Shown here one piece after another: positions 15,200 through 29,595 of a stretch of DNA of 64,000 nucleotides; the first letter of the stretch is position 1; every line of letters starts with the position of its first letter. Source of the stretch: Pelagibacterium sp. 26DY04 (GTDB lineage: Bacteria; Pseudomonadota; Alphaproteobacteria; Rhizobiales; Devosiaceae); contig NZ_CP101731.1 in the NCBI RefSeq assembly GCF_031202305.1, positions 682,001-746,000 on the forward strand, in the 5' to 3' direction. Made by a program: the position numbers and the translations under genes. The notes under the pieces are model-generated. The model saw only the letters and a list, made by a program, of their open reading frames with translations. It was not told the origin of the DNA and made no database searches.

Positions 15200-15616
15200 T
15201 TAAGATTTGGTGTGGTCATGGCCCGGTTTGCCGGCAAACACCCACTCGCCGGCGGTCCAGCCGGCCCAGGCGGCCGCGAGCCAAAGAACGACGGACGCGA
15301 GAACATAGACCCCCGCCCCGGCCCAGTTCCCGCCCACGATCAGCATCACCGTTTCGAGGGAAAATGCCGAGAACGTGGTGAAACCCCCGCAGAATCCTAC
15401 AATAAGGAACGCTTCGAGCGTCGGGGATAGGCTGCGCCGCACCGCCCAGGTCGCACCCAGCCCGATAGCGAATGATCCAAAGATGTTGACGATCAGCGTT
15501 CCCGCTACGCTCCAATCCGGCCACAGGGCCAGCGCCGCCATCGAAACGACAAATCGCAGCAGCGCGCCCATTGCTCCGCCCACTGCGATAAAACCGGCCA
15601 GCCGCCCCCCGTTCAT
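15200..15616 (-). CDS. crcB: Fluoride exporter CrcB, second copy
   Basis: 138-residue CrcB/Fluc channel protein with four membrane segments and the family motif GFCGGFTTFSAF. The start at 15616 forms an ATGA overlap with the preceding crcB gene; the longer open frame upstream reads through that gene and is not real. Two different CrcB chains encoded together usually form an antiparallel heterodimer that lets fluoride leave the cell. Confidence 0.88.
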   Translation of the reverse strand: MNGGRLAGFIAVGGAMGALLRFVVSMAALALWPDWSVAGTLIVNIFGSFAIGLGATWAVRRSLSPTLEAFLIVGFCGGFTTFSAFSLETVMLIVGGNWAGAGVYVLASVVLWLAAAWAGWTAGEWVFAGKPGHDHTKS

Positions 15617-16017
15617 AAGACGGCTCCGAGGCTGTAGGTAACGGCAAAGCCGGTCACCGTAGCGCTGAGGCAAAAAAGCAGCGAAGCTCCGATATTGACC
15701 AACGCCATCCCACCCTTGCCCGCACGCAACAGGGTTAGCGTCTGTAACGAAAAGCTCGACACGGTGGTGTAGCCACCCAGAAGACCAGTCACCAGCAATA
15801 GCCACGCGGCCCCCTGGGGGCTCAGTCTTCCATCCGCACCAACGGCAAGCCCCCCGGCAAGCCCGATAACCAGGCACCCGGAAAGATTGACAGCAAAAGT
15901 GCCGATTGCTCCGTGCCCGAAGCCGCGGCTGACGACCGTGGAGACGAGATGGCGCAGCACCGCTCCTCCCGCGCCGCCAATTCCCACCAGCACCATGGCG
16001 ATGACCGCTTCCAACAT
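15613..16017 (-). CDS. crcB: Fluoride exporter CrcB, first copy
   Basis: 134-residue CrcB protein with four membrane segments and the motif GLLGGYTTVSSFSLQ. The core begins at LEAVIAMVLVGIGGAGG. In-frame starts also exist at 16041 (ATG) and 16107 (TTG); none has a good ribosome binding site, so the start is chosen by family length. It overlaps the second crcB by 4 bp. I found no fluoride riboswitch in the 220 bp upstream. Confidence 0.82.
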   Translation of the reverse strand: MLEAVIAMVLVGIGGAGGAVLRHLVSTVVSRGFGHGAIGTFAVNLSGCLVIGLAGGLAVGADGRLSPQGAAWLLLVTGLLGGYTTVSSFSLQTLTLLRAGKGGMALVNIGASLLFCLSATVTGFAVTYSLGAVL

Positions 16018-16240
16018 GGGCTGACTTGAGGCCGATTCCATTGTGCTGTCGAGTGGTTGACTTGATGCCTTTGCACTCGTACTCAAACCCAGCCGAAAAA
16101 ATTTCAAGGCCGGTTTGGTTATTCCGGCCCCTGTTTCCCAGGATAGAGTCGCTCTGAGCGAACCCGCGGCACCACCCTAATCCGGCTGGTGCTGAGGGAG
16201 ACGTGCTCCGTCAGCCGCTGGCCCTTCTGGAAAAACAAGC

Positions 16241-16471
16241 ATGACTGACAAAAAGACCCTTCTCCTCGCCCAGATCTTCATCACCTTCATGATGGCGCTA
16301 TCGATGTCGGGCATCATGAGCCTGCTCCAACTTGGCGCCACTGCCCAATGGCTGACGATTTGGCCGCGCCAATTCATCATCGCTTGGCCCATCGCCTTTG
16401 TCCTCACCATGGTCATCAGCCGGCTCGGCTTTGCCCTTGCGCATCGGATTACCGCCAGCCGGAATGCCTAA
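16241..16471 (+). CDS. DUF2798 small membrane protein
   Basis: 76 residues with two hydrophobic segments (IFITFMMALSMSGIMSLL and QFIIAWPIAFVLTMVIS). Size, the early FMM.LSMSG segment and the W.RQFIIAWPIAF stretch are those of DUF2798, a family of unknown function often found near small efflux or stress genes. A strong hairpin follows directly. Confidence 0.75.
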   Translation: MTDKKTLLLAQIFITFMMALSMSGIMSLLQLGATAQWLTIWPRQFIIAWPIAFVLTMVISRLGFALAHRITASRNA

Positions 16472-16472
16472 G

Positions 16473-16506
16473 AAGATGGGGCATCCGGTATCGTATGCCC
16501 CATCTT
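16473..16506 (+). terminator. Strong hairpin after the DUF2798 gene
   Basis: Perfect 12-bp inverted repeat, AAGATGGGGCAT (16473-16484) and ATGCCCCATCTT (16495-16506), with a 10-base loop, starting two bases after the stop codon. No U-run follows, so it may act with Rho, protect the 3' end, or be an operator. It separates the DUF2798 message from the riboswitch that follows. Confidence 0.5.
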
Positions 16507-16542
16507 GACTTCCCGCCCCGGGGTACTAAATACCCCTCTCGC

Positions 16543-16586
16543 GAGGACGACCTCCCCCACGATGGGCATCATTCGGGACGGCCCGA
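16543..16586 (+). promoter_or_regulatory. Guanidine-II (mini-ykkC) riboswitch
   Basis: Two short hairpins with ACGR loops, the hallmark of the guanidine-II class: GAGG-ACGA-CCTC (16543-16554) and TCGGG-ACGG-CCCGA (16573-16586), joined by an 18-base linker. Each loop is closed by G-C pairs, giving the conserved GGACGRCC core twice. It lies 55 bp before the start of a PACE-family efflux gene on the same strand. In known cases guanidine binds both loops and exposes the ribosome binding site. The consensus is from memory; the hairpins are directly visible. Confidence 0.8.
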
Positions 16587-16641
16587 TCTTGACCCCGCCG
16601 CTGCAAGGCGCGGGCAAGCCATTGAGCTAGGAGTTCTCAAA

Positions 16642-17076
16642 ATGCGTACATCCTGGGATCGCGTCCGTCACGCGCTGCTGTTTGAGGTTTTCGGGTTAAT
16701 TCTCGTCATCCCCCTCGGCGCGCTCGTTTTTTCCATGCCCATGCACGACATCGGCGTTGTCGGTGTCGTCTCGGCCACGCTCGCCATGGTGTGGAACTAC
16801 GTCTACAACCTGATCTTCGACACTGTGCTCCAGCGCATGCGGGGCAACACGCTCAAGACGGTGCCGCTGCGCATCGCTCATGCGGTATTGTTCGAAGTCG
16901 GTCTGCTGATCGTCCTCATGCCGTTCATCGCATGGTATCTGGGCATCTCGCTCATGCACGCGCTGGTCATGGATATCAGCTTCGCTCTGTTTTATATGGG
17001 TTACGCCTTCGTCTTCAATCTGGGCTATGACAAGGTGTTCCCGCTGCCGGAATGGCAGAGCGTCGAGGCGAGCTGA
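16642..17076 (+). CDS. PACE-family efflux transporter
   Basis: 144 residues, four membrane segments, two repeats of the bacterial transmembrane pair domain. Each repeat begins with a similar stretch: RVRHALLFEVFGLILVIPL and RIAHAVLFEVGLLIVLMPF; the Glu in the first helix matches the essential Glu of the chlorhexidine exporter AceI. The conserved WNYVYNLIFD and LGYDKVFPLPEW also fit. The ATG at 16642 has GCTAGGAG upstream; the longer open frame has no support. The guanidine-II riboswitch upstream suggests it exports guanidine or a related cation, which is inference. Confidence 0.88.
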   Translation: MRTSWDRVRHALLFEVFGLILVIPLGALVFSMPMHDIGVVGVVSATLAMVWNYVYNLIFDTVLQRMRGNTLKTVPLRIAHAVLFEVGLLIVLMPFIAWYLGISLMHALVMDISFALFYMGYAFVFNLGYDKVFPLPEWQSVEAS

Positions 17077-28181: not shown

Positions 28182-29390
28182 CTATATCTGATCCAGCGCA
28201 AACTCCAGATCGGCGATCAAATCATCAGCGTCTTCCAGCCCCACCGACAGCCGCAGCAGCCCGGCGGTGATGTCCATCTCCGCCTTTTCCTCATCGGAAA
28301 AGCGCTGGTGGGTGGTGGTGGCGGGATGCGATATGATCGACTTCGCATCACCCAGATTGTTCGAGATCGCAATCACCGCCAGCGCGTCGGCCAGCGCGAA
28401 CGCCGCCGCCTTGCCACCCTTGGGCGTAAAGGCCACCAGCGTCGAACCGCTGCCCATCTGCCTCTTGGCCAGCTCATATTGGGGGTGCGATCTGTGATGC
28501 GGATAGCTGATGGATTCGATTTTGGGGTGCTCGGCGAGGTAGTCAGCGATCTGGCCGGCGCTATCGGTCATAGCCTTCACCCTCAAAGGCAGCGTTTCCA
28601 GGCCCTTCAGAAGCACCCAGGCGTTGAAGGGCGAGATCGAGGGGCCGGTCTGGCGGATGATCGTATGGATATCGGCTTCGATCAGCTCCTTGCGTCCCAG
28701 GATCACCCCACCCATGGCGCGGCCCTGGCCGTCCATATGCTTGGTGGCCGAATAGGTGACGAGATCCGCACCCAATTCCAGCGGCTTCTGCCAGATGGGG
28801 GTGGCGAACACATTGTCGACGATCAGCACGGCGCCATGCGCGTGGGCGATATCGGCGACAGCCGTGAGGTCCACCAGTTCCAGTGTGGGATTGGTCGGCG
28901 TTTCGACGAATACCACCTTCGTGTTGGGCCGCATAGCGCGCGCAAAGTTTTCCGGGTCTCGTCCGTCGACCAGCGTCGATTCTACCCCCCAGCGCGGCAT
29001 ATAGGTTTCGACCACGAACCGGCATCCGCCAAACAGCGCCCGCGCTGCGACCACGTGGTCACCGGCACGCAATTGGCTCATCACGGCGGTGGTCACTGCC
29101 GCCATGCCGGTGGCAGTCGCCCGCGCCGCCTCGGCGCCTTCGAGCAGCGCGGCCCGTTGCTGAAACATTTCCACAGTGGGGTTGGAGAACCGCGAATAGA
29201 TGTGCCCCGGCTCTTCCCCCTTGAACCGCGCTTCGGCCCCTTCCGACGTGGGATACACATAGCCCGAGTTGAAAAAGATGGCCTCGGACGTCTCCCCGTG
29301 CTGGCTGCGTTCCATGCCGCCATGCACCAACATCGTCTGCGCCCTGCGGCGTTTCGGGTCGTTGAGCGGATTGGCGGTCTTGTCGGCCAT
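28182..29390 (-). CDS. metZ: O-succinylhomoserine sulfhydrylase
   Basis: 402-residue Cys/Met-metabolism PLP enzyme making homocysteine by direct sulfhydrylation. Visible are HIYSRFSNPTVEMFQQR, ATATGMAAVTTAV, the aspartate VDNVFATPIWQKP and Schiff-base Lys217 in TYSATKHMDGQGR. The N-terminal RRRAQTMLVHGG is typical of MetZ. A SAM-II riboswitch and a terminator lie in its leader, so excess S-adenosylmethionine should shut it off. ATG 29390 follows GAGGTG. Confidence 0.95.
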   Translation of the reverse strand: MADKTANPLNDPKRRRAQTMLVHGGMERSQHGETSEAIFFNSGYVYPTSEGAEARFKGEEPGHIYSRFSNPTVEMFQQRAALLEGAEAARATATGMAAVTTAVMSQLRAGDHVVAARALFGGCRFVVETYMPRWGVESTLVDGRDPENFARAMRPNTKVVFVETPTNPTLELVDLTAVADIAHAHGAVLIVDNVFATPIWQKPLELGADLVTYSATKHMDGQGRAMGGVILGRKELIEADIHTIIRQTGPSISPFNAWVLLKGLETLPLRVKAMTDSAGQIADYLAEHPKIESISYPHHRSHPQYELAKRQMGSGSTLVAFTPKGGKAAAFALADALAVIAISNNLGDAKSIISHPATTTHQRFSDEEKAEMDITAGLLRLSVGLEDADDLIADLEFALDQI

Positions 29391-29407: not shown

Positions 29408-29437
29408 AAAAAAAACCGGCGCGCGATGCGGCCGGTT
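29408..29437 (-). terminator. Leader terminator between SAM-II and metZ
   Basis: On the minus strand AACCGGC (29437-29431), a 10-base loop, GCCGGTT (29420-29414) and a run of eight T. It sits between the SAM-II aptamer and the metZ ribosome binding site, so it is likely the expression platform of the riboswitch. Confidence 0.75.
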
Positions 29438-29445
29438 CGACTGGT

Positions 29446-29499
29446 CACTTTAGCAAGTTGTTTTAGGTGGCTTGCAATCGGACCGGCCAAATCGCCACC
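29446..29499 (-). promoter_or_regulatory. SAM-II riboswitch upstream of metZ
   Basis: Read on the minus strand, the segment has the SAM-II landmarks: GGTGGCGATTTGGCCGG, then GATTGCAAGCCACC, an A-rich AAAACAA, and TTGCTAAAG. GGTGGC pairs with GCCACC to form P1, and the 3' end folds back in the pseudoknot. SAM-II is known mainly in alphaproteobacteria before metA, metX and metZ. Its position 55 bp before metZ fits. Confidence 0.88.
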
Positions 29500-29595
29500 A
29501 ACCGCATTGCGGTCAGTGCTGAGTTACGCCGAAATCGCCCTTGGCGTCAATCGCTTCGCTTGCTAAGCCAGACCAACAGGTTCGCCGGAGACATC

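Follow-up and report, generated by a model that had tools for sequence, protein, structure and literature searches.

Guanidine-II (mini-ykkC) is a class of riboswitches for which the binding of guanidinium by the two hairpin loops has been solved (PMC5486947, accessible part). The accessible part of a 2025 review of guanidine biology describes it as a translational switch that promotes initiation, names SMR/Gdx and MATE proteins as the pumps, and reports that SugE/Gdx-type SMR proteins have been shown to export guanidine (PMC12186494). In the available text of a 2010 survey, emrE is the commonest gene associated with mini-ykkC (PMC2864571). PACE proteins are a multidrug family that the available text of a phylogeny paper describes as transporting chlorhexidine and perhaps short diamines, with a helix-1 glutamate that is fully conserved in the family (PMC9045395). 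The window, by which we mean the whole analysed stretch of 64,000 nucleotides from Pelagibacterium sp. 26DY04, contains a guanidine sensor of this class before a gene of the PACE family, a reading that is well supported. The features of the locus are as follows.

16505–16510 and 16527–16532, plus strand: promoter-like pair TTGACT and TAAATA with 16 nt between them, ending just before P1 (by eye)
16539–16586, plus strand: Guanidine-II (mini-ykkC) riboswitch aptamer, RF01068 (Rfam match)
16543–16554, plus strand: P1 hairpin, GAGG-ACGA-CCTC (sequence)
16551–16555, plus strand: CCTCC, the 3' arm of P1 plus one base, candidate anti-Shine-Dalgarno (sequence)
16555–16572, plus strand: linker between P1 and P2, which in relatives forms a short CCC..GGG helix (leader alignment)
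16573–16586, plus strand: P2 hairpin, TCGGG-ACGG-CCCGA (sequence)
16588–16618, plus strand: extra predicted hairpin between P2 and the ribosome-binding site (MFE structure)
16629–16633, plus strand: AGGAG, likely Shine-Dalgarno of the PACE gene (read from the sequence)
16642–17076, plus strand: PACE-family transporter gene, 144 aa, with two BTP stretches and Glu15 (profile matches)

Both hairpins carry ACGR loops on GC-rich stems and lie close to the ribosome-binding site of the PACE gene, and the full-length RF01068 model matches positions 16539–16586 on the plus strand with 34.9 bits against a gathering score of 32 (cmscan, Rfam 15). The E-value of this match is 0.0028 for the 64-kb window against 4227 families and 4e-5 for the whole genome against RF01068 alone, and it is the sole match in the 3.89-Mb genome. 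An initial annotation, made from the letters alone, had placed two ACGR hairpins at 16543–16554 and 16573–16586, taken them for a mini-ykkC riboswitch 55 bp before a PACE transporter, and proposed a covariance-model check. The hairpin positions are exact in the sequence, the covariance score passes the Rfam threshold, the distance from P2 to the ATG is 55 nt, and the protein lies above the cut-offs of both PF05232 and PACE_transport. P1 and P2 are also the only ACGR hairpin pair on either strand of the window when at least four Watson-Crick pairs per hairpin and loops 18–60 nt apart are required, and 20 block-shuffled windows yielded no such pair. The idea that the two are a chance pair of GC-rich hairpins, with no riboswitch at all, draws on the small margin over the gathering score (2.9 bits only) and on the folding of the whole leader, which is not better than that of its shuffles (z = −0.81, with 37 of 200 shuffles folding equally well). 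Set against the empty shuffled windows and the occurrence of both hairpins at the corresponding position in 73 of 80 close relatives (the best 80 of 551), this idea is improbable in the extreme.

The TTGACT/TAAATA pair, immediately 5' of P1, may place the transcript start near the aptamer; this pair was not reported by a sigma-70 consensus scan, and many relatives have similar TTG..TATA-like pairs just 5' of P1 (by eye). The distance of about 55–56 nt from P2 to the ATG (16642) is the largest P2-start spacing among 25 linked leaders, and because of this spacing and the extra predicted hairpin the expression platform of the window copy may be unusual. Directly upstream of the PACE leader is a gene for a DUF2798 small membrane protein (16241–16471, plus strand). 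Two adjacent CrcB (fluoride channel) frames on the minus strand (15203–15877 and 15616–16107, overlapping as listed) lie beside the PACE locus, and no fluoride riboswitch was found in the window at the Rfam threshold. Farther along the window, a SAM_alpha riboswitch (29429–29508, minus strand, 55.7 bits against a gathering score of 36) precedes a gene for a 402-aa protein (28182–29390), which looks like a sulfhydrylase of methionine synthesis.

The protein encoded behind the switch matches PF05232 with 163.4 bits in two stretches (cut-off 25.6) and the NCBIfam model PACE_transport (NF033664) with 130.7 bits (cut-off 80), which places the BTP domains and the general PACE model over their curated cut-offs. 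PF05232 is the only family found at E ≤ 0.001, and the protein is not a member of the Gdx/SugE SMR family (PF00893); its likeness to Gdx is one of role, not of membership. With the AceI chlorhexidine exporter model (NF033663) it scores 93.5 bits, below the equivalog cut-off of 180, and it is likewise below the cut-off of the PCE model. Chlorhexidine itself is a bis-biguanide. The conserved glutamate of the first helix is present as Glu15, and in the tree described below this residue occurs in all 46 switch-linked or decayed rows, all 9 unswitched members of the same clade and all 45 rows outside it. Among the best 80 of 551 encoding stretches the nearest PACE protein is that of P. luteolum (78%), and a sequence search found no solved PACE structure.

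A survey of PACE genes for this motif, which the initial annotation had also suggested, revealed a recurrent arrangement and not a one-off. Guanidine-II was matched in 111 of 397 genomes of the order (121 sites) and PACE genes in 65 (67 genes), and 25 of the 121 sites, in 25 genomes, lie directly 5' of a PACE gene. When the first genes behind the 121 sites were clustered, SMR genes accounted for 59, DUF1989 and PACE genes for 25 each, and others for 12; a single representative of the DUF1989 cluster passes the NCBI UAAP1 model, and a single representative of the SMR cluster passes the SugE model. The range of switch-gene spacing is similar for PACE, SMR and DUF1989 genes. Individual reading of leaders added 11 linked PACE genes that had been missed by the fast filters, which brings the order to 36 linked genomes. 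Eight of the added leaders have two ACGR loops (G077, G130, G146, G173, G195, G225, G278, G314), two have a variant second loop (G179, G332) and one has a mismatched P1 (G370). A survey of 398 genomes of the phylum contributed three more linked cases, all within the class (G549, G574, G658). In one genome (G017) the first PACE gene behind the switch is succeeded by two more. Three PACE leaders (L032, L036, L153) are Guanidine-II-like with ACGT or ACGC, not ACGR, as the second loop and represent natural variants of the binding-loop position.

Both elements are present at separate places in nine genomes of the order (G117, G207, G244, G294, G298, G321, G341, G383, G394) and, unlinked, in one genome of the class (G454). 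In other classes, a by-eye comparison within the phylum survey found at least 29 genomes with both elements unlinked and no linked PACE among the matches listed. The typing of downstream genes covered sites other than the class-level Guanidine-II sites L194 and L196–L203.

The sample of named genomes consisted of the best 80 of 551 encoding stretches, picked for likeness to switch-linked PACE, so its counts give no frequency for PACE at large: two ACGR hairpins of at least 4 bp lie upstream in 73 of the 80, and the aptamer reaches the Rfam gathering score in 49 (7 + 15 + 13 + 14). These relatives belong mainly to Rhizobium and its kin, Agrobacterium, Microvirga, Devosia, Pelagibacterium and genera near Rhodobacter. 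One of them is a metagenome bin labelled Arenimonas, a name that belongs outside the class; its leader closely resembles those of Ciceribacter. Upstream of many other PACE genes stands a motif of a clearly different kind that lacks ACGR hairpin pairs (by eye).

In a tree of 100 PACE proteins, every switch-linked protein falls in a single clade of 55 rows, comprising 39 switch-linked proteins, 6 with decayed leaders, 1 operon partner and 9 without a switch. SH-aLRT support for this clade is 82, or 98 with one further row, and four changes of switch state suffice on the tree as against a shuffled mean of about 33; the tree is based on few columns and has many open forks, and one row with a stop codon inside (L156) was removed before it was built. 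Residues D6, R9, G18, F30, Y99, Y118 and P134 are common to the switch-linked rows and also to most of the nine unswitched members, and each is found in a minority of the 45 PACE proteins outside the clade; the alignment used for this comparison was made without AceI and PA2880 themselves. The nine clade rows without a switch, together with the description of PACE as a multidrug family (PMC9045395, available text), would suit a multidrug pump whose leader was captured by chance and kept for general use, with no special link to guanidine. We regard this as quite improbable, since the association recurs in Devosia, Pelagibacterium, Rhizobium, Agrobacterium, Microvirga and several Rhodobacter-like genera and is complementary to Gdx-type SMR proteins, as detailed below. 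Because the switch precedes PACE genes across many alphaproteobacteria, we suggest that this branch of the family expels guanidine, and genome context lends support to the earlier proposal that the PACE protein of the window is a new candidate guanidinium exporter.

Switch-linked PACE and switch-linked SMR genes do not occur together in any surveyed genome of the order: none of the 36 genomes with the former has the latter, which is present in 57 of 397 (hypergeometric 0.003, relatedness ignored). An additional Guanidine-II before a DUF1989 gene is found in 8 of the 36 genomes with switch-linked PACE as against 1 of the 57 with switch-linked SMR; the window's genome has no DUF1989 gene. SMR genes were searched for in the 39 linked genomes and 41 others, and matches of more than 30 bits were typed in the 39 linked genomes and in some of the 41 others; for the SMR of one locus (L218, in G278), which the SMR tree does not include, the type was assigned from its motif. 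The group that includes all 59 switch-linked SMR proteins, which is of the Gdx type, has members among the typed genes of only 4 of the 39 linked genomes (G187, G361, G131, on a long branch, and G370, the genome with the mismatched P1). Most typed SMR proteins of linked genomes are Qac/EmrE-like and fall in a 45-row group without any switch-linked member, and SMR genes of a third type occur as pairs in five linked genomes. The window's genome encodes one SMR protein, which is Qac-like (61.7 bits with the SugE model, cut-off 126). A general replacement of SMR proteins by PACE was rejected, since an SMR match above the cut-off is present in 30 of the 39 linked genomes; the replacement rule holds only for the Gdx type. 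Given the 0 of 36 co-occurrence and the presence of Gdx-type SMR in just 4 of 39 linked genomes, PACE seems to have taken the role of the exporter.

Family f10 includes six genomes in which the Guanidine-II leader before PACE has decayed, with one hairpin left or the loops altered (L057, L142, L147, L154, L157, L161). Five of these six genomes have a Gdx-type SMR gene with a Guanidine-II-like leader, and in these five and in G370 that leader combines a perfect P2 with an altered P1 (both by eye). Neither of the two genomes of the family with an intact PACE leader (G292, G306) has a Gdx-type SMR. Further SMR matches in one of the six (G346) are fragmentary and lie outside the typing. The numbers are small, and the pattern looks like a hand-over between PACE and Gdx pumps. 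We lean towards the view that the PACE clade consists of separate, dedicated, riboswitch-controlled guanidinium exporters that replace Gdx, the two swapping places in the course of evolution, with decay of the switch at PACE where a switch-controlled Gdx is present.

In five genomes a second atpB gene, encoding ATP synthase subunit a, is preceded by a Guanidine-II match (34 to 47 bits) at a distance of at most about 230 nt (G202 C1:609817; G394 C1:1434646; G321 C10:12904; G294 C21:142661; G207 C1:4510365; loci L286, L284, L285, L237 and L243). Each of these genomes has two atpB copies, as compared with one in the window's genome. The switch-linked copies group by themselves (SH-aLRT 96), with SH[SA]VRLFAV as against SLSVRLF[AG]N in six ordinary copies, and are followed by a Gdx-type SMR gene in three of the five genomes; a protein search with AtpB did not separate them from the ordinary ones. 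The switch-linked atpB looks like a guanidine-induced spare proton-channel subunit.

The four pairs of P1 are invariant in all 50 aligned PACE leaders, and because P1 never varies it gives no covariation evidence. In the same leaders the outer pair of P2 appears as C-G, U-A, G-C and U-G, and the linker helix has 76.8% of its cells paired and three of its four pairs changed on both sides. The covariation score of the whole structure is 0.121; shuffled leaders gave 0.051, with 0 of 500 reaching the observed value, and sliding the structure gave no more than 0.028. Two of the five covariation measures are not far from shuffles (double-change pairs, 32 of 500; pair types, 57 of 500). PACE leaders have a style of their own, in which ACGR is followed by CCTCC: among the Infernal-called leaders of the order, this is the case in 20 of 25 before PACE, 7 of 59 before SMR and 0 of 25 before DUF1989 genes.

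With P1 open, the CCUCC could mask the ribosome-binding site; tests of this idea were negative or weak. In 37 leaders, pairing of the anti-Shine-Dalgarno with the leader's own partner was not stronger than with swapped ones (mean −12.1 as against −11.7 kcal/mol permuted; 843 of 5000 as low). When the 5' arm of P1 was blocked in the models, pairing of the Shine-Dalgarno with the 3' arm of P1 and the linker increased in 24 PACE leaders (0.22 to 0.48) and decreased in 57 SMR (0.19 to 0.11) and 24 DUF1989 leaders (0.46 to 0.40). Mean accessibility of the Shine-Dalgarno decreased in PACE leaders (0.31 to 0.23) and likewise in SMR leaders (0.33 to 0.26), so that this drop is no speciality of PACE. 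A modelled drop of more than 0.2 on opening of P1 was seen in 2 of 24 PACE, 11 of 57 SMR and 2 of 24 DUF1989 leaders. In the window copy the modelled accessibility was unchanged (0.54 and 0.55), and a role of its P1 CCUCC arm as a putative anti-Shine-Dalgarno is not borne out.

We consider it likely that the locus represents a translational ON switch for a guanidinium exporter of the PACE family, which occupies the place of Gdx/SugE in these alphaproteobacteria. Computed observations are the aptamer and the gene family, the recurrence of the pairing, the shared clade and, within the survey, the exclusion against switch-linked Gdx; the ligand response of the window copy, its ON direction, the use of the CCUCC arm of P1 as an anti-Shine-Dalgarno and the substrate of PACE are what we infer. 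The Guanidine-II riboswitch would form the start of the PACE mRNA, and accumulated guanidinium would bind both ACGR loops, which would then kiss and hold P1 and P2 together, as is known for the class. The ribosome-binding site would be freed and the PACE pump made. This pump, probably proton-coupled like its relatives, would expel guanidinium or a close guanidino compound and so take the place held elsewhere by the SMR protein Gdx/SugE.

A different cargo is possible but doubtful: the switch may sense guanidinium as an alarm while the pump mainly carries another guanidino or amine compound (methylguanidine, agmatine, biguanides or short diamines). According to the available parts of the respective papers, PACE proteins are described with chlorhexidine and perhaps short diamines (PMC9045395), methylguanidine, aminoguanidine and agmatine bind the Guanidine-II stem loops too (PMC5486947), and guanidine exporters also accept methylguanidine (PMC12508155). 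However, the commonest gene behind the switch in the order is an SMR gene, the representative of which is SugE-type, and switch-linked PACE and SMR genes are mutually exclusive in the survey, both of which speak against a different main cargo.

The pairing of Guanidine-II with PACE is likely, though not proved, to be new. No report of the pairing was found in the literature searched, which was mostly titles and the starts of abstracts; the gene-association supplement of the 2010 survey (PMC2864571) and the 2017 validation paper (PMC5340285) were outside its scope. The accessible part of the 2025 review mentions no PACE pumps, and its sole 'PACE' is an author's name (PMC12186494). The word 'PACE' is likewise absent from the accessible text of the guanidine-IV paper (PMC7736828) and of a 2025 methylguanidine paper (PMC12508155), as is the word 'riboswitch' from that of the PACE phylogeny paper (PMC9045395).

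PACE proteins have become known as biocide transporters whose natural substrates are not firmly established; with a guanidine sensor fixed before much of one clade, there is a natural substrate that is directly testable. It also adds a transporter family to guanidine biology, in which export has so far been credited mainly to a different pump family. If the clade does consist of dedicated exporters, PACE, a biocide-resistance family, gains a further natural substrate. The position of the sensor also suggests that metabolite export may be the root of a small multidrug family, an origin that has been put forward for SMR proteins (PMC12186494, accessible part).

Guanidine-II before SugE/Gdx SMR genes has the same two ACGR hairpins just 5' of the gene, in genomes of this order of bacteria, but the gene here belongs to the PACE and not to the SMR family, and CCTCC after ACGR distinguishes 20 of 25 PACE leaders as against 7 of 59 SMR leaders. 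Guanidine-IV before MepA/MATE genes likewise puts a transporter family under a guanidine riboswitch (PMC12186494, accessible part), although RNA class and transporter family both differ. The PACE transporters AceI of Acinetobacter and PA2880 of Pseudomonas have the PF05232 domains, the match to the general PACE model and the helix-1 glutamate in common with the window protein, which scores under the AceI and PCE model cut-offs and belongs to a clade of its own.
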